Source: Merismopedia glauca CCAP 1448/3 (GTDB lineage Bacteria > Cyanobacteriota > Cyanobacteriia > Cyanobacteriales > CCAP-1448). From it: a stretch of DNA of 33,531 nucleotides. Each line of letters begins with the position of its first letter. The first letter of the stretch is position 1. The translations under genes were made by a program, and so were the position numbers. Below are positions 133 to 27,744 of the stretch, in pieces. The stretch is from contig NZ_PVWJ01000053.1 of the NCBI RefSeq assembly GCF_003003775.1, positions 1 to 33,531 on the forward strand, read 5' to 3'. A model generated the notes under the pieces. It worked only from the letters and a program-made list of their open reading frames with translations. It was not told the origin of the DNA and did no database searches.

Positions 133-1161
133 CTAAGGAGTAGGGATTTCGTATATAGTACCGACACCAGTTGTACGATTATTCTCGCTGACATAAAGAC
201 TGTATCCTGCTGCGCCAGAACTGCGACGACCAAAATCTATATCCCTAAGATCGGCAACAAATCCTTTAGCAAAGACAGTAGCATCGCTCAAATCTGCTTT
301 GATGCGAACAATTATGGGGGAACGCGTCTCGAAATTTAGAGTCCAGAATATATCTCCGCTAACTGGATGGATGGTACATCTAGCACCGTAACCGGCTATC
401 GTCAGGGCTGCATTAACATCGACATCTGTTTTTAAGTTGTAAACTTTGACAATGTTGCCGTTAGGTAACAGTTCCTGGATGCCAAACTTGGGTTCAGTGC
501 AGATGATTGTTCTACCAGTTGGGGTAATAACATGATCGTCCCAAGGGACGTTTGCGGTATTAATTTTGGTAGGAAATGTAGTGGCATTTTTCAGGAAACG
601 AAATACTCCGCCAGGCCAATCGCTAGATACTAGCGCTGCGCTACCATCTGGAGTAAAGGTTATACCACTAGATCCCACATTTTTCGTTGGCCAGGTAGCA
701 AATGATGATGCTGCACCTCCGGTTGGGCTAAAACCCCAAAGTCCAGTTTTGGTAAATATGTAGTATAACCCGTTAGGTCCTAAAGTCAGGTCATTACCCC
801 AAGTTCGGTGATTACCGACATTTAGAGTCGGTCCTACCTGCACAGCAGTCCCAAGACCTGTAGATTTAATCAGTCGATTCATGGTGCTGAGAGAAGATGG
901 ACCATTGAAGGGAGCCGCATTTGCTTGAGCCACGAATACTGCACTTCCATCTGGGGCTACTTCTAGCCCTTGCATATGGAAAAGGTTCGAGTCAGGGTTA
1001 AGAACACCTCCTTGATCGAATATAGATAATGGACCTGCTGTGGGATCGACAACTTGAATAGCTGCTTTGGCAGGTGTTACAGTCGCTAGAAGCAAACTTA
1101 AGCTAGTCAAACCTACCAGTGCGTTCTTGATCTTCTTCAAAGATATGGGACAATTATTCAT
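133..1161 (-). CDS. Secreted beta-propeller protein (SMP-30/NHL-like)
   Basis: A 342-residue exported protein of unknown substrate. It has a clear signal peptide: a basic start with Lys residues, a hydrophobic core (LVGLTSLSLLLATV), and a probable cleavage after AKA near residue 33. The mature part is built of repeating strands with FTPDGSAALVSS- and VAPDGSAVFVAQ-like stretches, as in six-bladed SMP-30/gluconolactonase or NHL propellers. I see no certain metal-binding set, so lactonase activity is not claimed. The start is well supported by a perfect AGGAGG Shine-Dalgarno sequence (1169-1174 on the complement), 7 bases upstream of ATG. It lies 112 bases downstream of the condensation-domain gene on the same strand, so it may be the last gene of that operon or a separate unit. 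Confidence 0.75.
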   Translation of the reverse strand: MNNCPISLKKIKNALVGLTSLSLLLATVTPAKAAIQVVDPTAGPLSIFDQGGVLNPDSNLFHMQGLEVAPDGSAVFVAQANAAPFNGPSSLSTMNRLIKSTGLGTAVQVGPTLNVGNHRTWGNDLTLGPNGLYYIFTKTGLWGFSPTGGAASSFATWPTKNVGSSGITFTPDGSAALVSSDWPGGVFRFLKNATTFPTKINTANVPWDDHVITPTGRTIICTEPKFGIQELLPNGNIVKVYNLKTDVDVNAALTIAGYGARCTIHPVSGDIFWTLNFETRSPIIVRIKADLSDATVFAKGFVADLRDIDFGRRSSGAAGYSLYVSENNRTTGVGTIYEIPTP

Positions 1162-1273: not shown

Positions 1274-3019
1274 CTATCTATTAGTCATCCTCCTTTGTTT
1301 CATCAATTGCTGACGGCGTTTGATAGTTTCTTTTTGCCTTTGAGCATTGTCTTGGATTTCTTGCCAAGCTGACTGAGCCACATCACTTTCCTGGCTAAGA
1401 TATTGAGCCATTGCTCTGATAGTCGGATATTTAAACAGATCGATAGTTGATAGATCTCTATTAAACTTTTCTCGCAATTGGCTAATTACTTTCGCCACCA
1501 GGAGAGAATGCCCTCCAAGATCGAAAAAGTTTTGCTCAATGCTTACTTGGTCGATATGTAGAACTTGTTGCCAAACAGCAGCAATAGTGCGTTCTATCTC
1601 TTTCTGGGGTGCTATATAAACAGTTTCTGTCTGAGCTTGACTAGTAGGTTCTGCTTTTCTCAAACAGGGTAAGCCAGATAGGTGTTCCTCTGGATTAGCC
1701 ACCAGACTTTCGAGCAAAGTAGCAAACCGATCGAGAAACTCACGAATAGTAGTTGGCTCAAATAGGTCAGTTTTGTAATCTAGCCATCCAGTCAGGAGAT
1801 CGCCTTTTTCTTCAATAAAAAGGGATAAATCGAAATTAGCTGTGCCATTGGGTATATCTTGCCAATCCACGCCTATCCCTGGCAAATCTAAACTCTCTGT
1901 GGCAGGAGGTTGCAGGGCAAAAAAGCCGCGAGTTAGGGGAGTACGGACTAGATTGGGGAGATCGGCGATCGCCTGAAAAGGTACATCTAGATTTTTGTAA
2001 GCTCCTAGTACTACTTTACCCACCCGATTCATCAGTTGCATCAAGGTGGGATCTCCTGATAAATCGCTCCGAAGCGGTAGGATATTGATGAAATAGCCAA
2101 TTAACTCTTTAGTTTGGAAGCGATGGCGACCAGCCACGGGAGAACACACTAGCATATCTTCTTGCTGAGTGTATTGATACAACAAGGTCTGAAAGGCTGT
2201 CAGAAGGGTGATAAATAAAGTTACCCCTAGGCGATCGCTCAGTTGTTTCAGGGCACTAGTCAAACTTTGGTTAAGCTCTAGAGATTGCCTAGCACCTTGG
2301 TAACTAACCACAAATGACCGAGGGCGATCGCTCGGTAGCTGGAGGGGAGCTAGATTCCCAGCTAGCTGCTGTTCCCAATAGGTGAGTTGAGCGAGTCCTT
2401 TTGAGCCTTGGAGCCATTGTTGCTGCTCTTGGGCAAAATCGGCATATTGTTTCGGTAATGGCGGTAAGGGAGGCGTTTGTCCCTCAATTAAGGCTTTATA
2501 GTTAACGGCTGCTTCCTGCATTAAGAGATGTAAAGACCAGCGATCGCTAACTATGTGGTGGATATTGACTAAGAGAACGTGACGGGATTGCCCTAAAGAG
2601 ATGAGTTGGAAGCGCCACAAGGCTCCATCAGTCAAACTAAAAGGAGTTTCGGCTTCTTCTTTCTCTAGCCGCTTCAGTTCCCCTTCCTGCTGGTCTGCTG
2701 ATAACGAGCTAAGATCTACAACTGGTAAACTAAATTCTGTTATTTCCGCAATAATCTGCACGGGTTGTCCATCAACAGTGCCAAATCTGGTGCGTAGGAC
2801 TTCATGACGTTGGAAAATCTCTCTCAAACTCTGTTCTAGTACTGCTACATCCACTTCACCTGATAAATGATAGGCGACAGGAATGTTATAAATCGCAGTG
2901 CCTACCTCTGACTGCTCGTGTGACCACAAGCGCTGTTGAGCTAAAGAAAGGTAAGCAGATTTAGTGGGGTTAGGTGGGGTGGTAATTGGTGAAAATCCAA
3001 TTAGTTGGGGGCTATCCAT
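1274..3019 (-). CDS. NRPS condensation domain plus C-terminal carrier protein (C-PCP)
   Basis: A 581-residue two-domain NRPS-type protein. The condensation domain fills about residues 20-450. It has the SLAQQRLW (C1), RHEVLRTRF (C2) and HHIVSDR (C3) motifs; the catalytic pair H154/H155 and D159 are present, but the usual Gly after Asp is Arg160. A carrier domain follows at about 465-545, with phosphopantetheine Ser505 in LGGHSL. The tail (about 545-581) is highly basic and rich in Gln, Lys and Arg. There is no adenylation or thioesterase domain. The likely role is to join the acyl chain on the neighbouring ACP to an amine or alcohol, either free or carried on its own PCP and charged in trans. 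It is the fourth gene of the FAAL operon, 37 bases after the ACP gene. No strong Shine-Dalgarno sequence precedes the ATG. Confidence 0.88.
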   Translation of the reverse strand: MDSPQLIGFSPITTPPNPTKSAYLSLAQQRLWSHEQSEVGTAIYNIPVAYHLSGEVDVAVLEQSLREIFQRHEVLRTRFGTVDGQPVQIIAEITEFSLPVVDLSSLSADQQEGELKRLEKEEAETPFSLTDGALWRFQLISLGQSRHVLLVNIHHIVSDRWSLHLLMQEAAVNYKALIEGQTPPLPPLPKQYADFAQEQQQWLQGSKGLAQLTYWEQQLAGNLAPLQLPSDRPRSFVVSYQGARQSLELNQSLTSALKQLSDRLGVTLFITLLTAFQTLLYQYTQQEDMLVCSPVAGRHRFQTKELIGYFINILPLRSDLSGDPTLMQLMNRVGKVVLGAYKNLDVPFQAIADLPNLVRTPLTRGFFALQPPATESLDLPGIGVDWQDIPNGTANFDLSLFIEEKGDLLTGWLDYKTDLFEPTTIREFLDRFATLLESLVANPEEHLSGLPCLRKAEPTSQAQTETVYIAPQKEIERTIAAVWQQVLHIDQVSIEQNFFDLGGHSLLVAKVISQLREKFNRDLSTIDLFKYPTIRAMAQYLSQESDVAQSAWQEIQDNAQRQKETIKRRQQLMKQRRMTNR

Positions 3020-3056
3020 GATTTTTATCGGTCAAAAACTTAGATTAAAAGGAATT

Positions 3057-3383
3057 TCAGTTAACATCGTTGTCAGTTAATATGGCAGAAATATCAAAGT
3101 TTTCTGCTAAATATTGAGCCGATTTTTCAATTGTCGGATAGTCCCACAACAAAGTTGCTGGTAACTCTAGAGCCAACAAATCTTCTAAATCACTGACCAT
3201 AGTTACAGCATCAATAGAATCTATACCGTAACGGGTGACTGGTTCGGTGACGCTAACTGTATTCACATCAAGAGATAATTGCTCGGCTAGTTTGACGGAT
3301 AGCCACTTTTCCATAGCTGTTTGGAGTGTTGTTTTGGTATTCTCTGTCTCATTAGGCTGGGAGCAAAGATCCTGAAGTTGCAT
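3057..3383 (-). CDS. Acyl carrier protein
   Basis: A 108-residue carrier protein of the ACP/PCP fold (about residues 20-100). The phosphopantetheine attachment site is Ser56 in YGIDSIDAV, a GxDS motif, followed by the typical helix II (MVSDLEDLL). The domain is preceded by about 20 polar residues. The proposed ATG lies inside the end of the acyl-CoA dehydrogenase gene (32-base overlap) and has a GAGGA Shine-Dalgarno sequence 9 bases upstream, so translational coupling is likely. A shorter start at Met24 (3314) would still give a full carrier domain. It presumably receives the acyl-adenylate made by the FAAL, presents the chain to the dehydrogenase and hands it to the condensation domain. Confidence 0.9.
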   Translation of the reverse strand: MQLQDLCSQPNETENTKTTLQTAMEKWLSVKLAEQLSLDVNTVSVTEPVTRYGIDSIDAVTMVSDLEDLLALELPATLLWDYPTIEKSAQYLAENFDISAILTDNDVN

Positions 3384-5166
3384 TGGTTTTGTCCTCTAAT
3401 ATTTGAGTTTTTGATTGAGCTAGTTGAAAAGGAACAATAGAAAAGAGTCTTTCTTCTCTATAGAGTTTGAGCATTTCTTGAGCCACATTTTCAACTTCAG
3501 ACCTAGAAGTTAAGTATGGCATAGGTCGTAAGCTCCGCAGTAACCTATGCAGGCTTAAGACCAACCATTCACCTTTGGCAAAGAAATCACCCAAAGTTTT
3601 GCGGTTATAAATCCACATATGTAGGCAAGATGCGGCTGCGTGTAAAGTGCAGTATTTCTTGGCTGTGTCAAATAATTTGCTCGACTGATTATGACCGTAC
3701 TCGAATTTCAAGTCAGCAATTAGTTCATCGTGAACATTGAGTTCTTCCAGAATTATTTTGCTGAGGTCAATCAGTTGCTTGAGGATCTCGCTATTTATAT
3801 TAGACTCACTCTTCAACTCTCGGAGTTGTTCTAAAGCTATTTCCAAGCCTTGCAAAGCATCATCGACACCGCGCCCAAAAAGTTCCAGGTTTTGGGGGAC
3901 GAAAGTGGGGACTGGCTGTTGTAGGGTAAAGATAATTTCCAGGCGAGATTTTAAGGCTTCAGTAGTTTTAGGATTCGTTTTCGCACGGTATTTGGTTATT
4001 TGACGCAGTTGTAAAATGAGGGCGTGTAAGTTCACCACTGTACTGCCATCAAAGACGCTGATAATTGAATTATCCCGCAGTAATTTCTGAAAAATACCCC
4101 AATCGTGTTCCTCACGCATATAAAAACGCGATCCTAGAACCACGGAAAGGTTATTAATCGCTGTTTCTAACTGAGTGGTGACGAAATATTTAACTACTGA
4201 TGCCCAAACGCTAAATTGTTCTGGAACTACGTGAAATCCTCTAGCGGCTCCAATGGTTTCACAATCGCAAATCAAGATGTCTAAAAATCCATCAACTAAG
4301 GTTTGTTGAGGTTGGGGAAGGTCAAAAACAGTCTTGTCATAGATACGGCGATTGAGGGCAAATTTCAAGGTAGTTCTCAAGGCTGTATCTGCGGCTCCGT
4401 GAGAAAAAGCAGCACAGAGAGTTCGGGTGACTTGAAAACCTTTCAAGGCTAATTCTAAACCCACTCCTTCATCACCTAAACGCATATCATCAGGAATGAA
4501 GCAGTCTGTAAACCCAATACCACTCATATCGCAGCCGCGAATTCCATGTGTGAGTATTTTGGGTAAATTGTAGTATTCAGCCTGATTGATTCGGCTCTTC
4601 TCGACCATGAATAGAGAAAGACATCTAGCACCGCCAGCAGGATCGGTTCTAGCGATAATGTAAGTTACTCCAGAAACGGTAGCGCGGTTGATGGGCCATT
4701 TTTCACCGTTGAGGAGATAACCTCCTGGGACTTTTGTGGCTGTGACATCTCCACCGACTAAATCGCTACCATGCTCTCTTTCCGAATAACCCAAGCACAT
4801 GGCTCCATGCTGCTCTTTAATAAAGTGAGCTAGTCTTTGCTTTTGAGGTTCAGTACCAGCTAACCAGGTAATAAAAGACCAAAATAGAGTTGAGAAACTA
4901 ATGCCTGTAGTTTGATCCCGACGGGACATGACTCTGATGGCAGCTACCAGTTCTTCAAAAGAGGTAAATTCTCCGCCACAGCTAACTGGAATGTAATGGT
5001 TTTGGAGGTTCCAGTTATAGAGCCATTCAATCTCGGCTTCAGGAAAAGCTTCTTGCTCATCGAGGGCGATCGCACTGGCAAAAGACATGATACTCTCAGG
5101 ATCGCCAGGATGTCCCAAGTCTTTTTCTAAAGCTTCAGCTAGCCAATATTGTTTTAATTGATGCAT
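3352..5166 (-). CDS. Acyl-CoA dehydrogenase-like flavoprotein (acting on ACP-bound acyl chain?)
   Basis: A 604-residue acyl-CoA dehydrogenase family member, longer than classic enzymes (about 380-400) because of a helical C-terminal extension from about residue 400, as in very-long-chain and FadE-type members. The flavin/substrate region reads LGYSEREHGSDL followed by GGYLLNGEKWPI, matching the family's TEPxxGSD...xGxKxxI pattern. At the place of the medium-chain catalytic Glu (YEGT) it has FDGS, putting Asp373 there. Family members alpha,beta-desaturate acyl thioesters using FAD. The gene sits between a FAAL and an ACP gene, so ACP-bound acyl chain is the likelier substrate than acyl-CoA (inference). 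It starts 20 bases after the FAAL stop and overlaps the ACP gene by 32 bases. Confidence 0.85.
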   Translation of the reverse strand: MHQLKQYWLAEALEKDLGHPGDPESIMSFASAIALDEQEAFPEAEIEWLYNWNLQNHYIPVSCGGEFTSFEELVAAIRVMSRRDQTTGISFSTLFWSFITWLAGTEPQKQRLAHFIKEQHGAMCLGYSEREHGSDLVGGDVTATKVPGGYLLNGEKWPINRATVSGVTYIIARTDPAGGARCLSLFMVEKSRINQAEYYNLPKILTHGIRGCDMSGIGFTDCFIPDDMRLGDEGVGLELALKGFQVTRTLCAAFSHGAADTALRTTLKFALNRRIYDKTVFDLPQPQQTLVDGFLDILICDCETIGAARGFHVVPEQFSVWASVVKYFVTTQLETAINNLSVVLGSRFYMREEHDWGIFQKLLRDNSIISVFDGSTVVNLHALILQLRQITKYRAKTNPKTTEALKSRLEIIFTLQQPVPTFVPQNLELFGRGVDDALQGLEIALEQLRELKSESNINSEILKQLIDLSKIILEELNVHDELIADLKFEYGHNQSSKLFDTAKKYCTLHAAASCLHMWIYNRKTLGDFFAKGEWLVLSLHRLLRSLRPMPYLTSRSEVENVAQEMLKLYREERLFSIVPFQLAQSKTQILEDKTNATSGSLLPA

Positions 5167-5186
5167 AGAACTCTAAAAAGTAAATT

Positions 5187-6986
5187 TTAGGTAGTGTGTA
5201 ATTGCTCAGCTAGGGAGTCTACTTCCTGCCGCAGACGACGGAAATTGGCAGTGAGTTTCGGATCTTCGCTCCAATCATCGATCACACCCAGTTCCCCAGC
5301 CAAAAAACTAGCTCGACAAGCTCGGCGTTGAATTTTGCCACTGGCTGTCTTCAAGATATTTCCCCGCTTGACGAGGACAATAGCATGAGTCTGGAGTTCG
5401 TGCTGTTCAGCGATTTCTTGACGAATATCGGCGATCGCTTTTTGGGTATCGAAACCCTCATTACCTCTTTCTATTTCCTGAACTACCACTAATCTTTCTT
5501 CGCCATTAGCGTCGATGGAGAAGGCTGCACCATAATCAGGTCTAAAGGCTGGGTGAACTTGCTGCATAGTCCACTCAATGTCTTGGGGATAGTGGTTTGT
5601 CCCTCTGATAATGATTAAATCTTTGATCCGACCACTAATATATAATTCCCCATCTTTAATAAATCCTAAATCTCCAGTGCGAAGAAATGGCCCTTCGCCT
5701 GTATCGGCGATATATGCGCTGAAAGTGCTGTTAGTTTCTTCCACCCGTTGCCAGTAGCCTTGAGCTACGCTGGGGTCTGATACCCAAATCTCGCCCACTC
5801 GATCGAGAGAGCATCTAGTTAGCTTGTCAGGATTAACAATAGCCACTTTGGTTTCACAAACTAGACGACCGCAACTAGGGAAGGTTCTGACTCCTTCATC
5901 ATCGGGTCTAACTGGAATAATCTGGTCTTTTTCAATAGCTACTGTCGAAACATGGCAAAAAACTGGCTCAGTTAGCTTCGGTTTAGTAGATACTAATAAT
6001 GTGTCTTCTGCTAGTCCGTAAGCTGGAGCAAAAGCATTCCAGCGAAAACCATACGGAGCAAACTTTTCCCAGAAAGCCTGCATCACTTTGGGATTAATGG
6101 GTTCGGCGGCGTTCCCGGCTGCTTCCCAACAGCTTAGGTCTAGGTTAGCCATTTGAGCGGGTTTAATCCGGCGAATGCATTGATCGTAGGCAAAGTTAGG
6201 TGCTTGACTATGAGTGCCTTTATAGTTAGCGATCGCTTGTAACCAGACCAAGGGTCGCTTAATAAATGCAAAAGGCGACATCACATAGCAGGGGGTACAG
6301 TTGTACAGGGGAACTATTAACCCTTCTACCAATCCATAATCGTGGAAATAAGGCATCCAGGTCACGGTAACACTATTGGTTTCGTAACCGCAGGCTTGTT
6401 TCAAATAAGACGCATGGTGCATCAGATTGTAGTGACTGAGCATCACGCCTTTGGGAGTGGAAGTCGAGCCTGATGTGTACTGGAGATAAGCTAGTACGTC
6501 TTGGTCTACATCAGGCTCTTGCCAAGTTTCTGCTAGATCTAGATCTACTTGTTCGGTATCGATCCAGCGCATACTCTGCAATTCGGGAAAATCTGCCTCT
6601 ACCTCACTTACTATTTCCAAAATCCCAGCCGTCGTTAACACTAAAGAGGCTTGAGCATCCTTGATAATGGCTTGGAGTCTGGGTAAAGTCCGCTTCAGTC
6701 TACCTGCTTCTGGTGGTGGTGCGGGAATGGCAATGACTCCAGCATACAAGCAACCGCAAAAAGCCGCTATTACTTCTAGACCAGCCGGATATAGGATGAG
6801 AGCGCGTTCTCCCTGAGCGTTGAGGGATTGTAATTGAGCGGCGATCGCCCGCGCTCGTCTATCTAATTCTCCATATGTCAGCCGCCCAGTTTCTTTATTC
6901 CCGTCGGCGAGAAACGTATATGCGTGTTGCTCAGATTGCTCTGTTGCCCTTTCCCTTAGTAGTTGCAGTAATGTAGAGTTTCCCAT
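5187..6986 (-). CDS. Fatty acyl-AMP ligase (FAAL)
   Basis: A 599-residue member of the ANL adenylating superfamily. It has the phosphate-binding loop YTSGSTSTPKG near residues 170-180, the AYGLAE core, the TGDLGFI and GRIKDLIIIRG motifs, and the C-terminal adenylation Lys551 in ASGKIQRR. The length, the GLVEGLIVPLY and WMPYFHDYG segments, and the ACP gene two genes downstream favour a fatty acyl-AMP ligase over an acyl-CoA synthetase. FAALs activate a free fatty acid with ATP and transfer it directly to an ACP. It is the first gene of the minus-strand operon. No Shine-Dalgarno sequence is visible, and the start codon region lies in a possible stem-loop with 7022-7030. Confidence 0.92.
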   Translation of the reverse strand: MGNSTLLQLLRERATEQSEQHAYTFLADGNKETGRLTYGELDRRARAIAAQLQSLNAQGERALILYPAGLEVIAAFCGCLYAGVIAIPAPPPEAGRLKRTLPRLQAIIKDAQASLVLTTAGILEIVSEVEADFPELQSMRWIDTEQVDLDLAETWQEPDVDQDVLAYLQYTSGSTSTPKGVMLSHYNLMHHASYLKQACGYETNSVTVTWMPYFHDYGLVEGLIVPLYNCTPCYVMSPFAFIKRPLVWLQAIANYKGTHSQAPNFAYDQCIRRIKPAQMANLDLSCWEAAGNAAEPINPKVMQAFWEKFAPYGFRWNAFAPAYGLAEDTLLVSTKPKLTEPVFCHVSTVAIEKDQIIPVRPDDEGVRTFPSCGRLVCETKVAIVNPDKLTRCSLDRVGEIWVSDPSVAQGYWQRVEETNSTFSAYIADTGEGPFLRTGDLGFIKDGELYISGRIKDLIIIRGTNHYPQDIEWTMQQVHPAFRPDYGAAFSIDANGEERLVVVQEIERGNEGFDTQKAIADIRQEIAEQHELQTHAIVLVKRGNILKTASGKIQRRACRASFLAGELGVIDDWSEDPKLTANFRRLRQEVDSLAEQLHTT

Positions 6987-16061: not shown

Positions 16062-19000
16062 ATGTCTCCTCTTAGCATACGCACTAGTAGATCGATTCTC
16101 GATTTAGAGACGGGAGCCGCTACCATTTGGGTATTACCAATTGGAGTTAATCAATATCACGATCCTGAACTACCAGCTTTACGTTATTCAGCGTTTGATT
16201 GTCAAGGGTTCGCCTCAGCTTTAGCTACAGCAACTGAGACGTTTCCTAAAAAGCACATGAGGATTCACCACGATTTTGCGCCTCAATTGCCTTTATTGAA
16301 GCAAGTACGCGATAGTTTAGGGATAATTGCGGCTCAAGCTCAATCACAAGATACTGTAGTATTTTACTTTTCTGGACATGGCATTTTAGATCCAACGACT
16401 GGGGAAGCAGTTTTGTGTTTAGCAGATACCAAAACCAATAACCTAGTTAATACAGCTTTAAGCTTGGCAGAGTTATTACAAACTCTAGAAAGAAGTTTAG
16501 CTCATAACCAACTAATCTGTTTAGATGCGTGCCACAGTGGTGGCTTAAGTTTGCGGAAACAGCAAAGTTTTTCGGGTAAAACACCAGATGAACCTCAAGG
16601 GTTAGTACAGCCTGCTATACAAGTTAATCCGGTTCAAGGCTCCAAATCTGGGGCGATTAACCCTTTAACTAATCAATTAGTCCAGGTTTTACAGCAAAGA
16701 GCCGCTCGATCGCAAGGATTTTATGCTTTACTATCCTCAGATCGCGCTCAGCAATCTTGGGAGTTTCCCGAATTAGGACATGGGGTCTTTACTTACTATC
16801 TCATGCAAGGGTTGCGGGGAGAAGCATCTGATGACGCGGGTTTAATTACGGCTGATGGCTTATATAGCTATGTTTTTCATCAAACTCTGCAATATATCGA
16901 TCAAACTAACCAACAACTACGCCTAGTTAATCAGCACAAAGCCAGTCGCGGGGAAAAACTCTTACAAGCTGAATATCCTTTACAAACTCCGAAGCGGATT
17001 GTGGAAGGGGTAGGAGAATTGATTTTAGGTGTCAAACCCCAACAAGTAAAAGCTTCTGTTTCTAGTCGGAAAGCGATAGTGATTGATGGGTTTGGGAATC
17101 CAGAAACCCTTGCTTTTAGTAAATTAATCAGTCGTTCGGGTAATTTCGATCTAACATATTGGCATCCTCAAGGTAAGCAGGAAGAGGATTTACAGCAAAT
17201 TCTGAGTAAATCTCTAGGTGATGGTGTCTCTAGTCTAGAAGAGAAAAAAACCCTGCTATTGTACGTGCGATCGCAGATCGAACAAACTTCTACTGGTGAA
17301 TCCGTCCTCATTTTGGGAGAAGATGTAAAATTAGCTCGTTCTTGGCTCAGACAACTATTACGTCGCTGTCTGTATAGTCAACAGATTGTTATACTCGATT
17401 TTCCCACACCAATTGAACTAACTGGTGTGATTCTCTCTTTACTCAAAGATTGGCTGGAAGATTTGCAAGTAGACAGCCATATCGCACAATGTTTCATAGC
17501 TGGCTCATCTTTGGCAGATCGATCCGAAACTTTTACTCATATTCTCGTCAGAACTTTAGCTAGAGCCAGTAATAATCCTGAAGGTTTAACAATTGCCAGT
17601 TGGATTCCACAATTACAACAAGAATTAGCTGGTAGTAACGTTCCTTGGCAAATTTCCTTGGCTGGAACCAAAGCGGTGATGGAGGTTTTACCAACTCAAA
17701 ATGGGAAATCAAAAACCTCTATCGATTTAGGAATCTGTCCTTATAAAGGTTTAAGAGCTTTTACCGAAGCTGATGCTCAATATTTCTACGGTAGAGACAG
17801 TTTAACTCAAGAATTGATCCAAAAGTTGAGCTTGCGATCGCTTTTACCAGTAGTTGGTGCGTCTGGTAGCGGTAAGTCTTCGGTAGTTCAAGCGGGATTA
17901 GTCGCTAAGTTGCGTCAGGGGAGACATTTACCTGGAAGCGAACAATGGTGGATTCGCACCTTGCGTCCGAGCGATCGCCCTATGCAAGCATTATCTCGCA
18001 GTTTGGTGGATGCGAAGACGGAAAAGGATCGATCCTATCAACAAAAACTCCTCGAAGGGATTCTCTATCAAGGGTTAGAAGGATTTGTCTATTGGTTGCG
18101 AACTCGCAGCGAACCGATGGTGGTTCTGGTTGTCGATCAATTTGAGGAATTATTTACTCTGGCTTCTGCTATTGAGAGAGAACAGTTTTTAAACCTAATT
18201 TTGGGTGCGATCGAGTTAGCTCCTGATAAGTTTAAAGTAGTTATTACCTTACGAGCCGATTTTATGGCTAGTTGTTTGGAAATTCCCCAACTAGCTAACC
18301 TACTTCAAAGCCATAGCGTTCTAGTTCCGGCTAAACTTACCAGCGACGATTATCGCCAAGCAATCTTACAACCAGCCGAAACAGTTGGTTTAAAGGTAGA
18401 ACCGGATTTAATTGCGGTCTTATTACAAGAATTGGATAATTCTGCCGCCGATTTGCCTTTATTACAGTTTCTCTTAGAACAGTTATGGGAACAAAGGATT
18501 GGTGGCAAGTTAACTTTACAGACTTATTTACAACAAATTGGCGGACTTAAAGGTGCTTTGGAGCAAAAAGCTCAATCTGTCTACGATAGTTTAGATCCAG
18601 AGGCTCAAAGATGCACTCAATGGATTTTTCTGAGTCTGACTCAACTGGGAGAAGGTACGGAAGATACCCGTCGTCGGATTCCTAAAAGCGATCTAGTGGT
18701 GGCTAAATATCCTCCCGAATTGGTGGAAAGAACGCTCAAAGCTTTGACAGATGCTAAGTTAGTGGTAGTAAGCTGTGAAGAAGAAGTTGGGACAGCTAAA
18801 GGGCAAACTAGTCAAGAATTACCAAATTCTGGCTTAAAACCCCAGGAAATATCGGTAGAAGTCGCCCATGAAATCTTGATTCGTCATTGGTCAACTTTGC
18901 GGTGGTGGCTGCAAGAAAACCGCGCTAGATTGAGTTTACAAAGACAGGTGGAAGCTGCTGCTCGTCTTTGGCAAGAAAATGCTCACCAAAGCGACTTTTT

Positions 19001-21347
19001 ACTCCAAGGAGTTCGATTAGGAGCAGCAGAAGAAATTTATATTAAATACACCGATGAATTATCAACTGAGGTACAGCACTTCCTCGAAGCTTGTTTAGCA
19101 GCGCGAAACGAACAGCAACTACAAGCCAAAAAAAGACTGAGACAGACACAAGCTGTAGCTGTAGGGGCGATCGCTTTAGGAATATTAGCGATGGGTTTGG
19201 GTAGTTTGGCTTATGTACAAGGGGAGAAAGCAGCATTAAGTGAGGTTTCGGCTTTAAAATCCCTATCTTTAGCTAGTTTAAGCTCAAATCACCAATTAGA
19301 AGCTTTAGTCGCTAGCTTGAAAGCAGCGAAAAAGTGGCAACATCAGAGAAAGCTACTGAGTCTGGTTCCTGGGAGTGATTATGCTACCCATGAGAAACTG
19401 ATGCTTAGTGTCTTAATGCAAACTATCTATGAGACTCAGGAACGCAACCGCTTGTTAGGACATGGTTCTTGGGTAACTACAGCAATTTTTAGTCCTAATG
19501 GGCAAATTATTGCTTCTGCTAGTGTCGATCGCACCATCAAACTTTGGAAAGTTGACGGAACTCTAATTCAAACCCTCACGGGACATACTCAAGGAGTCAA
19601 TAGCGTCACTTTTAGCCCTGATGGACAAATTTTAGCTTCTGCTAGTAGCGATCGCACTATCAAACTCTGGAAAGTTGACGGAACTTTAATTAAAACCCTC
19701 ACCGGACATACAGACAGCGTTTTGGGGGTAAGTTTTAGCGCTGATGGACAGCAACTAGCATCAGTAAGTAGCGATCGCACCATTAAAATTTGGACAGTTG
19801 ACGGTCAATTAGTCAAGAATTTACCAGGTACTCTCAAACAGTTCACTGTAGTTAAATTTAACCCTCAATTTACCACTTTAGCTGTCGGTAATTCTGATGG
19901 TTCCGTAGAACTGTGGAATCAAGACGGGAAATTTCAGAAGACATTAGGTAAACACTCAGCAGAAGTCGATAGCTTGGCTTTTAGCCCCGATGGTCAGGCA
20001 TTAGTTTCTGGTAGTGAAGATGGTACACTCAAGCTATGGCAGTTGGAGCAGGGCACGCAACGCACGCTGAGCCAAAATAATGAAGATCTACCTCGGCGTG
20101 AAGGTCCTATCAAAAGTGTTAGTTTTAGTCCAGATGGGAAATATATCCTTTCTGCTGGTGGGGATGCAGCTATTCGATTGTGGAGTGTAGATGGTAGCTT
20201 ATTAGCTACTTTTTTGGGACATACTCGCGGTATCAACAGCGTTAGTTTTAGTCCAGTTGGTGCGACGATGCCTTCAGGAATTGGTCAATCGATTATTTCG
20301 GCTAGCGATGACCAAACTGTGAGAATTTGGCATTGGGGGGAAGTCGTACCGACATCTTTAGTGGGTCATGAAAGTGATATAGTTGGCTTGAATTTTAGTC
20401 CTGATGGTCAAACTTTAGCTTCATCTAGTCAAGATGGGACAGTGAAGCTATGGAATTGGCAAACTAAGACATTATTAAATACTTTGAGGGGACATACCTC
20501 TTGGCTAACTAGTGTCAGTTTTAGTCCCGATGGTCAAACCCTAGTTTCAGCTAGTGCTGATAAGACCATGAAAGTTTGGACTAGCGCTGGTAATTTACTG
20601 CAAACCCTATCAGGTCACCAAGGTTGGGTGATTAGTGCCAATTTTAGTCCCATAGGTCTAAATTTAGTTTCAGGTAGTGCGGATGGCACAATTAAATTAT
20701 GGGAACGTCCTGCAAATACTAGCCTATTTGCCAGCCAACCTAAAGCAACCCTAACCGGACATACTGGATGGGTAACTAGCGTCAGTTTTAGTCCTGATGC
20801 TCAATTAATCGCTTCTGCTAGTGCTGATAAAACTGTCAAAATATGGAATCTCAAAGGTGAATTAATCCACACCCTAGAGAAACATCTAGCCAGTGTTTGG
20901 GATGTCAGTTTTAGCCCTGACGGTCAGTTATTGGGTTCGGCTAGTCAAGATGGTACGATTAATCTATGGCAAAGTAATGGAACTTGGCTGAAAACCCTAG
21001 AAGGTCACGAAAACGAAGTAAATACTCTAGCTTTTAGCCCAGATAGCCAGTTAATTGCCTCTGGTAGCGATGATGACACGATGAAAATTTGGAATCGGGA
21101 AGGGGATTTACTCAAAACCCTCTCAGGACACGGGGGTAACATTAGAAGTGTGGCTTTTAGCCTTGATGGTCATACTTTAGCAACTGGAAGCAGCGATCGC
21201 ACCATCAAACTCTGGGATTTACGCGCAGTTGAATTACAAAAACGCGACTTGAATAGTTTAATTTCAGTTGGCTGTCAGGAAGTGCGCGATTATCTCAAGA
21301 CTAACTCAAAAATAGAAGAGAGCGATCGCTCTTTGTGCGATTCTTAA
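16062..21347 (+). CDS. Caspase, STAND ATPase and WD40-repeat giant protein
   Basis: A 1761-residue protein. Residues about 20-310 are a caspase-type (peptidase C14) domain with catalytic His106 (FYFSGHG) and Cys157 (LDACHSGG). Residues about 337-548 look like a second, degenerate caspase-like fold lacking the dyad. A STAND/NACHT-type ATPase follows (about 560-1020): CPYKGLRAF entry motif, Walker A GASGSGKSS (Lys605), Walker B VVLVVDQFEELF (Asp692). A hydrophobic segment (about 1032-1053) may cross or touch the membrane. Fourteen WD40 repeats (about 1130-1720) fit two seven-bladed propellers. Such proteins are thought to sense a ligand through the repeats, oligomerise through the STAND module and activate the protease, in cell death or conflict. 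The trigger and target are unknown. Confidence 0.95.
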   Translation: MSPLSIRTSRSILDLETGAATIWVLPIGVNQYHDPELPALRYSAFDCQGFASALATATETFPKKHMRIHHDFAPQLPLLKQVRDSLGIIAAQAQSQDTVVFYFSGHGILDPTTGEAVLCLADTKTNNLVNTALSLAELLQTLERSLAHNQLICLDACHSGGLSLRKQQSFSGKTPDEPQGLVQPAIQVNPVQGSKSGAINPLTNQLVQVLQQRAARSQGFYALLSSDRAQQSWEFPELGHGVFTYYLMQGLRGEASDDAGLITADGLYSYVFHQTLQYIDQTNQQLRLVNQHKASRGEKLLQAEYPLQTPKRIVEGVGELILGVKPQQVKASVSSRKAIVIDGFGNPETLAFSKLISRSGNFDLTYWHPQGKQEEDLQQILSKSLGDGVSSLEEKKTLLLYVRSQIEQTSTGESVLILGEDVKLARSWLRQLLRRCLYSQQIVILDFPTPIELTGVILSLLKDWLEDLQVDSHIAQCFIAGSSLADRSETFTHILVRTLARASNNPEGLTIASWIPQLQQELAGSNVPWQISLAGTKAVMEVLPTQNGKSKTSIDLGICPYKGLRAFTEADAQYFYGRDSLTQELIQKLSLRSLLPVVGASGSGKSSVVQAGLVAKLRQGRHLPGSEQWWIRTLRPSDRPMQALSRSLVDAKTEKDRSYQQKLLEGILYQGLEGFVYWLRTRSEPMVVLVVDQFEELFTLASAIEREQFLNLILGAIELAPDKFKVVITLRADFMASCLEIPQLANLLQSHSVLVPAKLTSDDYRQAILQPAETVGLKVEPDLIAVLLQELDNSAADLPLLQFLLEQLWEQRIGGKLTLQTYLQQIGGLKGALEQKAQSVYDSLDPEAQRCTQWIFLSLTQLGEGTEDTRRRIPKSDLVVAKYPPELVERTLKALTDAKLVVVSCEEEVGTAKGQTSQELPNSGLKPQEISVEVAHEILIRHWSTLRWWLQENRARLSLQRQVEAAARLWQENAHQSDFLLQGVRLGAAEEIYIKYTDELSTEVQHFLEACLAARNEQQLQAKKRLRQTQAVAVGAIALGILAMGLGSLAYVQGEKAALSEVSALKSLSLASLSSNHQLEALVASLKAAKKWQHQRKLLSLVPGSDYATHEKLMLSVLMQTIYETQERNRLLGHGSWVTTAIFSPNGQIIASASVDRTIKLWKVDGTLIQTLTGHTQGVNSVTFSPDGQILASASSDRTIKLWKVDGTLIKTLTGHTDSVLGVSFSADGQQLASVSSDRTIKIWTVDGQLVKNLPGTLKQFTVVKFNPQFTTLAVGNSDGSVELWNQDGKFQKTLGKHSAEVDSLAFSPDGQALVSGSEDGTLKLWQLEQGTQRTLSQNNEDLPRREGPIKSVSFSPDGKYILSAGGDAAIRLWSVDGSLLATFLGHTRGINSVSFSPVGATMPSGIGQSIISASDDQTVRIWHWGEVVPTSLVGHESDIVGLNFSPDGQTLASSSQDGTVKLWNWQTKTLLNTLRGHTSWLTSVSFSPDGQTLVSASADKTMKVWTSAGNLLQTLSGHQGWVISANFSPIGLNLVSGSADGTIKLWERPANTSLFASQPKATLTGHTGWVTSVSFSPDAQLIASASADKTVKIWNLKGELIHTLEKHLASVWDVSFSPDGQLLGSASQDGTINLWQSNGTWLKTLEGHENEVNTLAFSPDSQLIASGSDDDTMKIWNREGDLLKTLSGHGGNIRSVAFSLDGHTLATGSSDRTIKLWDLRAVELQKRDLNSLISVGCQEVRDYLKTNSKIEESDRSLCDS

Positions 21348-25270: not shown

Positions 25271-26353
25271 CTATTTACCTTTCAACTGATTTTTAGCCTG
25301 TTCCAACGCAATTTCTTTCATAGCTTGATAAGAGTTGACATTAGAAGCACCTTCAATCGCTTTAACTGCTAAATCTTGGACTTGTTTTAAGGCTGATTCT
25401 AACTGTTTCGATAAACTTTCAATTCGCCCTTCGTTAGTCATGATAGATTGTTCTAAAGAATGCAATCTTTGCTGATAGAAGTGTTTTTGTCCTTCCACTT
25501 CTTTAGCATATAAATCTGCTTGAGATTTAGTTTGATGATAGGCTATTCCCTTGCCTTCTTCTGTCACTTTTTTCAAAGCTGTTTCTTTCTCTTTTGGTAA
25601 AGATTCTACTTTAGCTTTTGCCTCAGCATATAGTTTTTCGGTTTCTGCAACACTTTTTTCTTTCTCTTCCCAAGCCTTTTCTTGCACTTCTCGCAATTCA
25701 GCTAGTTCTTTATCTATCGCTTTTTGCTGTTGTTTATCTGCGTCAATTTGTTGCTTGCGTTCTAATTCCAAATTGTATTTGTATTCTGCTACTTCCCTTT
25801 CTTGAGTCTTTTGATAATTACTTTGTTCTTCTTTGATGGTAAGTTTGTGTTCTTCTTGTTCTTTTTGCCAAGCTTTTATTTGTTCTTGTAGTTCTTGTTC
25901 TAACGTTTCTTGTCGTTCATTAAATTGAGTTTTAAAGGTTTTAGAATCATTTTCATATTTGATGAATAATGTTTCCAGACTATCTTCTTTCAACTCTATT
26001 TTGTGTAAGTTTTCGAGAATTGAGGTTTCCTCAGCCACATTTTTTTGAATTTCTTGTAATTGAGATGCTTGACTAGTTAATTGTTCCGATAAACTACTAA
26101 TGGCACTTCCAAATCCTAATTGAATTTTGCCTAGATTTTCGATAATGTTATTCATGTTTCTTGCGACTGACTCTGGGGATTTAATAGTGGTTGGAGAGGT
26201 TGAAGTTGTATTTTCTTTGACTGTTGGTGTAGCTTTTTCTTTTGATAGTTTTTGTACTTCTGTTTTCAGAGCATTTTTCTCTTTAGCTAGCTCTTTATAA
26301 GCATCGAGGATTTCTGCTTTTGTGCTGCGTTCATTCGGTTCTTTGGTTGCCAT
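25271..26353 (-). CDS. Coiled-coil protein, paralogue 1
   Basis: A 360-residue cytosolic protein, almost wholly coiled coil and rich in Glu, Lys and Gln. The first 35 residues (a basic segment ending near KAEILDAYKELAKEKNALK) may form a separate helix; a Thr/Ser/Pro linker (about 45-65) separates it from the long coil (about 65-340). The C-terminus shares QLESALKQVQDLAVKA with the next gene's QLEAVMKQAQGLAVRA. I recognise no named family; myosin- or SMC-like hits would be coil artefacts. It lies 71 bases downstream of its paralogue on the same strand, so they are probably cotranscribed and may form hetero-oligomeric filaments (inference). Confidence 0.85.
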   Translation of the reverse strand: MATKEPNERSTKAEILDAYKELAKEKNALKTEVQKLSKEKATPTVKENTTSTSPTTIKSPESVARNMNNIIENLGKIQLGFGSAISSLSEQLTSQASQLQEIQKNVAEETSILENLHKIELKEDSLETLFIKYENDSKTFKTQFNERQETLEQELQEQIKAWQKEQEEHKLTIKEEQSNYQKTQEREVAEYKYNLELERKQQIDADKQQQKAIDKELAELREVQEKAWEEKEKSVAETEKLYAEAKAKVESLPKEKETALKKVTEEGKGIAYHQTKSQADLYAKEVEGQKHFYQQRLHSLEQSIMTNEGRIESLSKQLESALKQVQDLAVKAIEGASNVNSYQAMKEIALEQAKNQLKGK

Positions 26354-26424
26354 ATTTACCCCAAATAAGTTATCTATCTCGTTTGACTAAAATTTACTAA
26401 CTTCGATCGCTCATTCTTCACCTA

Positions 26425-27408
26425 TTACTTATTTGCTGAATTATCTAAGGCTCTGACTGCCAAACCTTGAGCTTGTTTCATAACAGCTTCTAGCTGAGTA
26501 GATAAGCCTTGAATTTGTTCGAGTTGCTTGGCAACATTTTGTTCCAAAGATTGAATCTGAAACTCATAACTTTGCTTGCTACCTTGCCATTCTTTTTCAA
26601 ATAAATCTGCTTTGATTTTGGCTTCTTTATGTACGTCTTTAATGGCTTCTTCTCTAGCCTTTTTAATGGCTTCTTCAATTTCAGTAGTGAAGGTAGCTAT
26701 CTGTTTCTGATTCTGCTCAAATTCAGCTTTACTATTTTTCAAAACAGTTTCTCTTTCTCGCCAATCTTTGGCTTTGACTTCGTTATTTTCTCGTAACTCA
26801 ATTTCTAAAGCAGCTTTATTAGAGGTATTTGCATCTGCAACTCTTTTGCGAGTAAGTTCTAGTTTATAGGCATATTCTTCTGCTTCTTTTTGGCGATATT
26901 TTTGCTGTATTTCCAGTTGTTGCTGAATTTCTTCAGTTCGTTCTTGTTGTTCTTGTTGCCAAGATTTACGAGTTTTACCAATCTCTCGATCTAAATCTTC
27001 TTTTTGGCGATCGCTCTCAGCTTCAATTAATCTCAGTTTTTCTTGATGCTCTTGTTGTAAAATGTGTAAAGTATCTGCGACTAATCTAATATTTTTTAGT
27101 TCTTGTAAGTGCTGGGTTTCTACAGCGATCGCACTTTTTAATTCATCTACTTTGTCGTGTTCTTTACCTAGCTTTTCGGCAAGACTAGTAATTATTTCGC
27201 CAAATTCAAGTTGTAAATCTGCTAAGCCTTTAACAATATTATCAACTGTGTACTGAGAAGCAGTTTGTAAAAGCTGTTGATTACTTTCTTTTTCAGCTTC
27301 TTCTTGTTTAGTCGCCACTTTTATGGCAGATTTGTTGCGTTCTGCCATTAGTTTTTGAAACATGGCTAATATGTATTCTTGACTATCTTGCATAGTGGTT
27401 TTGTTCAT
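26425..27408 (-). CDS. Coiled-coil protein, paralogue 2
   Basis: A protein of about 327 residues, mostly coiled coil, paralogous to the downstream gene (shared pattern EEYAYKLELTRKR / AEYKYNLELERKQ and a common C-terminus). The open frame extends to 27453, but ATG at 27408 has a GGGAGAAG Shine-Dalgarno sequence 4 bases upstream and gives an N-terminus (MNKTTMQDSQEYILAMFQKL) like a family start, so I set the gene there. Residues about 60-85 (VDNIVKGLADLQLEFGEIITSLAEKL) parallel MNNIIENLGKIQLGFGSAISSLSEQL in the paralogue. Function is unknown. There is no signal peptide or transmembrane segment. Confidence 0.83.
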   Translation of the reverse strand: MNKTTMQDSQEYILAMFQKLMAERNKSAIKVATKQEEAEKESNQQLLQTASQYTVDNIVKGLADLQLEFGEIITSLAEKLGKEHDKVDELKSAIAVETQHLQELKNIRLVADTLHILQQEHQEKLRLIEAESDRQKEDLDREIGKTRKSWQQEQQERTEEIQQQLEIQQKYRQKEAEEYAYKLELTRKRVADANTSNKAALEIELRENNEVKAKDWRERETVLKNSKAEFEQNQKQIATFTTEIEEAIKKAREEAIKDVHKEAKIKADLFEKEWQGSKQSYEFQIQSLEQNVAKQLEQIQGLSTQLEAVMKQAQGLAVRALDNSANK

Positions 27409-27744
27409 GTCTTCTCCCAGAATGAATAAGTAGGCACTAATTAACATACCCATGCTCGAATCAAAATCATGCTGGGGTGATAATTAGATAAGTAAATTGA
27501 TCGATACTCCAACACAACTTAGATTCCGCCTGTAGTCACGAGTGGAATCTGAAAAACTCGGTGGTTTTTGCTAGATATAAAAAACTCAAATCTTTGCTAC
27601 AGCAAGGTTTTCTGAGTTATTTGTGAGAAATAGTAGACTAATCAGAACGTATGTACTACTAAAGTATAAATAACCCGCAGGGGCTTGTCAAGAGCGAGAA
27701 TTAGAGATCGGGAGTTGGTTTTAGCATTGGACAGTTCGATATCT
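27409..27744. other. 336-base intergenic region with two stem-loops
   Basis: This lies between the barrel-protein stop and the coiled-coil start on the minus strand. It holds a 9-pair stem (27521-27529 with 27542-27550) and a stem-loop at 27583-27618 that is listed as a possible terminator. The part near 27520 probably contains the promoter of the coiled-coil operon, but no clear -35/-10 pair could be fixed. Confidence 0.55.
27578..27618 (-). terminator. Possible intrinsic terminator of the barrel-protein gene
   Basis: On the minus strand the outer stem AACTCA / TGAGTT (27613-27618 with 27583-27588) encloses an inner pairing TTGCT / AGCAA around 27594-27605, and is followed directly by a run of T residues (complement of 27578-27584). 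It lies about 127 bases past the stop of the barrel gene. The inner loop is tight, so confidence is moderate. Confidence 0.45.

Follow-up and report, generated by a model that had tools for sequence, protein, structure and literature searches.

A Merismopedia glauca FAAL-ACAD-ACP-C-PCP operon as the probable initiating half of a lipid assembly line split by the genome assembly

We analyzed a 33,531-base window of DNA from the cyanobacterium Merismopedia glauca CCAP 1448/3, which is the complete contig C53 of a genome assembly of 5,204,926 bases, and in particular an operon of four minus-strand genes near its left end. These genes encode a stand-alone fatty acyl-AMP ligase (FAAL), an acyl-CoA dehydrogenase-like protein (ACAD), a free acyl carrier protein (ACP), and a didomain protein with a condensation (C) domain, a peptidyl carrier (PCP) domain, and no adenylation (A) domain. 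The operon is probably the initiating half of a small hybrid nonribosomal peptide synthetase (NRPS)/polyketide synthase (PKS) lipid assembly line that was split by the assembly, with its second half on contig C117. This reading is based on the domain content of the genes, the gene order within each contig, the positions of the contig ends, the single other copy of a propeller-like gene, the class of the C-PCP tail, and the grouping of its C domain with others that lack an A domain (A-less). Should C53 and C117 indeed be joined, what looked like a puzzling, isolated operon would belong to a lipid assembly line free of A domains. Part of this picture is ordinary: a hybrid lipid assembly line cut short, whose starter is of a familiar type. 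The new part is a group of A-less condensation modules, together with a FAAL-ACAD-ACP cassette that is reused widely and contains an unusual dehydrogenase.

The operon, the contig break, and contig C117

The open reading frames of the four genes, with intergenic gaps of 20, −32, and 37 bases, coincide exactly with those given in a preliminary description of this DNA made from the letters alone, and the domain content proposed there was confirmed by Pfam. The FAAL (5187–6986, 599 residues) matched AMP-binding at 1.5e-62; its top NCBIfam matches include FAAL subfamilies, strongly yet all under the curated cut-offs, and its relatives of solved structure include FadD32, FadD23, and FadD28, with FAALs as the nearest relatives of its AMP-binding fold. 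The ACAD (3352–5166, 604 residues) contains the middle and C-terminal Pfam domains Acyl-CoA_dh_M and Acyl-CoA_dh_1, the N-terminal Pfam domain was not matched, and the protein gave profile matches to acyl-CoA dehydrogenases with solved structures. It is predicted to act on acyl-ACP. Acyl-CoA dehydrogenases carry their catalytic Glu in a YEG motif; the corresponding place in the ACAD is held by Asp373 (codon at 4048–4050, minus strand), with FDGS aligned to YEGT. This Asp was invariant in the 15 sequences that were aligned, and FDG was found in 79 of 80 ACAD loci, the remaining one being cut by its own contig end. Asp373 could still be a catalytic base. At one Nostoc sp. FACHB-110 locus (L198, 11774–13561) a second dehydrogenase lies right behind the first and has neither Asp nor Glu at the catalytic place. 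The ACP (3057–3383, 108 residues) matched PP-binding at 9.4e-13, and the C-PCP protein (1274–3019, 581 residues) matched Condensation at 1.6e-100 and PP-binding at 2.4e-18. Its C domain (1649–2956, minus strand) has the active-site motif HHIVSDR, its PCP domain (1397–1588, minus strand) has an intact serine site, DLGGHSL, and its basic C-terminal tail (1277–1366, minus strand) is predicted to dock to a ketosynthase (KS) protein. The Pfam search found no AMP-binding domain between Condensation and PP-binding, and a domain search found none in the C117 genes, so the missing A domain that had been pointed out earlier is real. A hybrid cis-acyltransferase PKS/NRPS lipopeptide line would be expected to have an A domain in every NRPS module, a feature that the operon and the C117 genes both lack.

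The left end of C53 lies 1.3 kb downstream of the C-PCP gene and 132 bases past the last gene. Bases 1–19 (no strand) are an artefact, the string AGATGTGTATAAGAGACAG, which we take to be a Nextera adapter and which among the fetched loci is present solely at the C53 start. Bases 20–60 (no strand) form a dispersed repeat, for which at least 38 further matches were found in the same genome, a lower bound that reflects the scoring of 40 of 77 candidates; eight of the matches listed, all in the same orientation, start no more than 41 bases from a contig start. Because the window is a whole contig that is broken at this end, the missing release step is not evidence of absence. The preliminary description had noted that nothing obvious released the product. 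That holds within the window, but the contig breaks 1.3 kb past the C-PCP gene and C117 encodes a C-PCP protein with a thioesterase (TE), so the lack of a thioesterase that made the system look stand-alone is probably an artefact of the contig end. Provided that the two contigs are joined, the break accounts for the absent step.

The last gene before the break (133–1161, minus strand) encodes an apparently exported, propeller-like protein of 342 residues, and a second copy starts contig C117. The gene was found in one of 388 genomes drawn from the class, that of M. glauca itself, in exactly two copies; it was not found in the other 387 and had no plasmid match. The two copies are 90% identical, both lie at contig ends, and they would stand head-to-tail if C53 and C117 were joined. 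A signal-peptide-like N terminus and propeller-like repeats were recognized by eye only. The product matched no Pfam or NCBIfam family, had no convincing relative of solved structure (best E 0.11), and yielded no usable model when its fold was predicted from the two copies (pLDDT 31), which leaves the earlier label of secreted beta-propeller unconfirmed.

The propeller copy on C117 is followed on one strand by genes for KS-acyltransferase (KS-AT), ketoreductase-ACP (KR-ACP), and TubC_N-C-PCP-TE proteins, and then on the other strand by glyS. The KS has the motif TACSTS, the AT has GHSIGE and HAFH, the KR has LDD, and the TE has GLSGG; these motifs are read in their usual sense, with HAFH presumably marking a malonyl-type AT. 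C117 thus encodes extension and release with no starter, and the window encodes a starter with no extension or release. The KS, AT, KR, and releasing TE of a hybrid cis-AT PKS/NRPS line are therefore all on C117, whose linkage to C53 we infer.

Evidence that the C-PCP protein hands its chain to a ketosynthase came from the C-terminal tails of proteins in the fetched loci that end in a PCP. We compared complete open reading frames of at least 300 residues with a PCP match within 110 residues of the end, counting identical tails once. Lys, Arg, and Gln made up 0.30 to 0.60 of the last 30 residues in all 20 proteins followed by a KS, most of these rows coming from loci of the nearest relatives of the C117 KS, and 0.13 to 0.27 in the 12 followed by a C-domain protein, none of which had a tail rich in these residues. 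Four rows with no recognized next gene in the stretch examined, the window C-PCP among them, stood outside both sets, and the value for the window protein, 0.53, falls in the KS-followed class. On the other side of the proposed junction, we examined 29 near relatives of the C117 KS, and in 25 of them an NRPS-type PCP is encoded no more than 1.5 kb upstream, while four have none there; the PCP is immediately upstream in 24 of the 25, and a 293-residue frame intervenes in one. To judge from these sequences, the C117 KS belongs with those predicted to accept chains from a PCP. The genome has one other such KS at E ≤ 1e-140 (six of eight candidates scored), with its own NRPS upstream. Further along C117, the KR-ACP protein has an acidic C-terminal tail and its neighbor carries TubC_N, which we take to be a docking domain of the beta-hairpin type. 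That type is described at carrier/C junctions in a review of docking domains (PMC9113145). The basic C-PCP tail, the PCPs upstream of the KS relatives, and the acidic tail with TubC_N together support the order C-PCP, KS-AT, KR-ACP, C-PCP-TE.

The full order would then be FAAL, ACAD, ACP, C-PCP, propeller copy 1, a gap with the dispersed repeat, propeller copy 2, KS-AT, KR-ACP, and docking domain-C-PCP-TE. In such a line the FAAL would adenylate a fatty acid and load it onto the free ACP, and the ACAD would desaturate the ACP-bound chain, with alpha-beta as the family's default position. The first C domain would couple the acyl chain to a unit held on its own PCP; the KS, docked through the basic PCP tail, would extend the chain with malonyl; and the KR would reduce it to a beta-hydroxyacyl chain. 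The second C domain would couple this to a second unit, and the TE would release the product. Both PCPs would have to be loaded in trans or be used in some other way. Of the two readings offered by the preliminary description, these data favor a fatty-acyl starter for an assembly line located elsewhere; the contig break, the KS-AT, KR-ACP, and C-PCP-TE proteins of C117, and the docking tail do not favor a stand-alone N-acylation or ester-forming system without release.

A group of adenylation-less C-PCP modules

The window C domain was placed, together with 14 others that lack an A domain, in what we name here the A-less C-PCP(-TE) group of cyanobacteria. A tree built from 54 C domains put all 15 in which C is followed directly by PCP on one side of a branch and the 30 with an A domain on the other (support 99/96); the tree is unrooted, nine unclassified rows are left uncounted, and the bootstrap had not settled (0.988). 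When the labels were shuffled, 12.8 changes were needed on average. The rows came from fetched loci; similarity to the window C-PCP or the C117 C domain was the main ground for choosing them, or else a Condensation match in the M. glauca genome. The grouping suggests that the A-less module is an inherited type. The closest relatives of the window C domain (sister, 98/92) are those of loci L103 and L104, which bring together a FAAL (fused to an ACAD in L103), an ACP, a C-PCP-TE protein, and a dehydrogenase.

BLAST searches found exactly one ligase gene in nine of the 14 A-less loci examined, C117 being counted among the 14. This single ligase is a FAAL in L097, L103, and L104 and is of another type in L100, L105, L106, L107, L108, and L115. 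L099 gave a weak, partial ligase match only, L101 has two NRPS A domains, and L098, L102, and L116 had no ligase gene by BLAST within the stretch examined. We tentatively propose, with rather more doubt than confidence, that these modules are an inherited cyanobacterial family that works with one discrete acid-activating ligase and one free carrier protein and couples acyl chains to a nucleophile in whose choice no A domain takes part. That nucleophile might, for example, be a free small molecule or a hydroxyacyl group on the PCP, the latter giving fatty acid esters of hydroxy fatty acids. On this view, the window and C117 would together make up a version with two modules separated by a PKS step. 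The group makes it testable which nucleophile a condensation domain uses when no A domain selects one.

The same genome has a second A-less cluster on contig C60 (L097, 6186–16118), with a FAAL, two fatty acid desaturases, an ACP, a KS without an AT, another ACP, and a TubC_N-C-PCP-TE protein.

The FAAL-ACAD-ACP trio in other genomes

ACAD homologues were found in 22 of 148 genomes of the order, M. glauca included. We surveyed the best 80 of 387 loci from a scan of the genome collection, so that partner counts lean to close relatives. A FAAL lies within three genes upstream of the ACAD in 56 of the 80, and this frequency and the spread of the homologues indicate that the trio is more than a chance assembly. 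The next partner is a membrane O-acyltransferase (MBOAT) at 57 loci, an NRPS C domain at three, a PKS at two, and a serine-palmitoyltransferase-like (SPT-like) enzyme with a short-chain dehydrogenase/reductase (SDR) at three; the contig ended at five, and none of these partners was present at the other ten, eight of them from Microcystis. The three NRPS loci are distant, two having full C-A-PCP-TE proteins and the third being cut by a contig end. An adenylating gene and a thioesterase that always accompany the orthologous cluster, which the preliminary description had named as evidence against its interpretation, were thus not found. Because the partners vary in this way, the trio has the look of a unit that supplies an ACP-bound acyl chain and has been coupled to different enzymes. 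Its reuse makes it a candidate for a general means by which a fatty acid, ACP-bound and possibly unsaturated, enters various lipid pathways. An MBOAT elsewhere in the M. glauca genome as the partner of its trio was considered and rejected, as that genome has no orthologue (best match 32%).

Several of these loci merit description in their own right. The FAAL-ACAD-ACP-MBOAT locus is widespread in cyanobacteria (the 57 loci, for example L050, 6363–18501) and often includes SGNH-, NDH-, and HTTM-like genes and a second MBOAT, the names being given by eye; we know of no product assigned to it. In L197, L205, and L206 (Oscillatoria, Oscillatoriaceae, and Planktothricoides) the FAAL and ACAD are followed by the ACP, the SPT-like pyridoxal phosphate enzyme, and the SDR, an arrangement that, with labels given by similarity, resembles the start of a sphingolipid-type synthesis fed from an ACP. 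The Microcystis loci L150–L154, L158, L162, and L173 have the ACAD and ACP with no adjoining FAAL or MBOAT in the stretch examined. On contig C21 of the M. glauca genome (L234, 4338–8348), one 1336-residue protein unites the three activities of the trio in a single chain, as a FAAL, an acyl-CoA dehydrogenase in which all three Pfam domains are present, and an ACP; large PKS/NRPS genes lie beside it.

Alternative explanations and known systems

In favor of a split assembly line, the trio precedes PKS or NRPS genes at five of the 80 loci. Several observations weigh against it. No read or contig spans the gap between C53 and C117, the repeat would break assemblies at both copies even if they were far apart, and 236 identical bases are common to both propeller genes. 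A propeller pair between a C-PCP and a KS-AT gene is odd, no A domain accounts for what the PCPs carry, and the tail statistics were drawn from related, selected rows. The window ACAD is nearest to those of MBOAT-linked trios (59–75% identity) and more distant from PKS-, NRPS-, or SPT-linked ones (44–51%). Synteny in relatives lent no support: glyS, which neighbors the C117 genes, and the PP2C gene, which neighbors the operon, were looked for in 40 genomes and were not adjacent in the cases compared, a result that is uninformative. The one further genome of the family has them on separate contigs, and in single-contig genomes such as G007 and G009 they lie over 1 Mb from each other.

One alternative for the PCPs is that an A domain of another NRPS in the genome loads both of them in trans, which would give a lipopeptide-polyketide of the usual kind and is compatible with the split assembly line. 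We regard this as possible but short of probable. The genome has 23 AMP-binding matches, many in NRPS proteins, and an A-methyltransferase-PCP-reductase protein without a C domain is encoded on C51. Against trans loading, no free-standing amino-acid A domain was seen among the 23, four of which are cut by contig ends (two on C191, one on C90, and one on C121): those outside NRPS proteins are FAALs (C53, C60, and C21), acetate- or acetoacetate-type ligases (C224 and C1), a fatty acid-CoA ligase-like protein (C46), and a menE-like protein (C17). A domains inside the other NRPS proteins could act in trans. It is unlikely, in our estimation, that the window genes are instead complete and form the stand-alone system of the preliminary description, with the C domain transferring the acyl group of the ACP to a free amine or alcohol, like the ligase/ACP/C-domain systems for fatty acid amides of gut bacteria. 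Whole clusters with one activating enzyme, an ACP, and an A-less C domain do exist in L103 and L104, the sister loci in the C-domain tree, with no other ligase by BLAST within 18–19 kb, and the Oaa pathway, described in a preprint (PMC13142362), illustrates that such chemistry occurs. However, the C domain of the window, unlike those of the Oaa type, has a PCP fused to it whose serine site is intact; its motif is HHIVSDR and not (D/H)HxxxDS/A; its tail is of the KS-docking class; and the contig stops 132 bases past the last gene. Least probable is that the operon is a decaying remnant, in which the trio lost an MBOAT partner and a C-A-PCP protein lost its A domain. Such a partner accompanies most trios (57 of 80) and has no orthologue in M. 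glauca, and broken trios occur elsewhere, for example with the ACAD in pieces in G010; yet all five reading frames (the four operon genes and the propeller-like gene) are intact, the Glu-to-Asp change is common to the ACAD family, and the A-less C domain groups with 14 others of its kind.

The split assembly line has partial counterparts among known systems. In the stand-alone FAAL starters of the jamaicamide (JamA) and cylindrocyclophane (CylA) pathways, as in the window, a discrete FAAL loads a discrete ACP, and PKS/NRPS extension may be preceded by modification of the ACP-bound chain (PMC11837247). The window differs in that the modifier is acyl-CoA dehydrogenase-like and the first acceptor is an A-less C-PCP protein. 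For ClyF and NocQ of the chlorosphaerolactylate and nocuolactylate synthetases, which are also cyanobacterial, the C domains have been proposed to link fatty acids with a hydroxy acid; compared by description, these are typical depsipeptide synthetase architectures (PMC12184294), whereas the window protein is C and PCP only. The Oaa pathway (OaaA/OaaACP/OaaC) shares with the window a discrete fatty-acid-activating enzyme, an ACP, and a C domain without an A domain. According to the preprint, OaaC has no acceptor PCP and a (D/H)HxxxDS motif, (D/H)HxxxD being followed mostly by Ser or Ala with the last position variable (PMC13142362); the window C domain is PCP-fused, has Arg in that position, and probably feeds a PKS, so that it shares neither of these two Oaa-type features as stated there. 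The FAAL-ACAD-ACP-MBOAT loci have the trio in common with the window, with ACADs 59–75% identical, and differ in that a membrane O-acyltransferase takes the place of the C domain as the next partner. No described product for the window arrangement was found in the open-licence literature, nor was an exact match to a characterized lipopeptide locus, which the preliminary description had considered as a finding that would overturn it.

Away from the operon, two further features of the window were recognized by eye. A gene at 16062–21347 encodes a large protein of 1761 residues that starts with a caspase-like part, continues with an NTPase-like one, and has WD40-type repeats, and the region 25271–27453 contains a tandem pair of genes for coiled-coil proteins that are alike in make-up and are probably paralogues.

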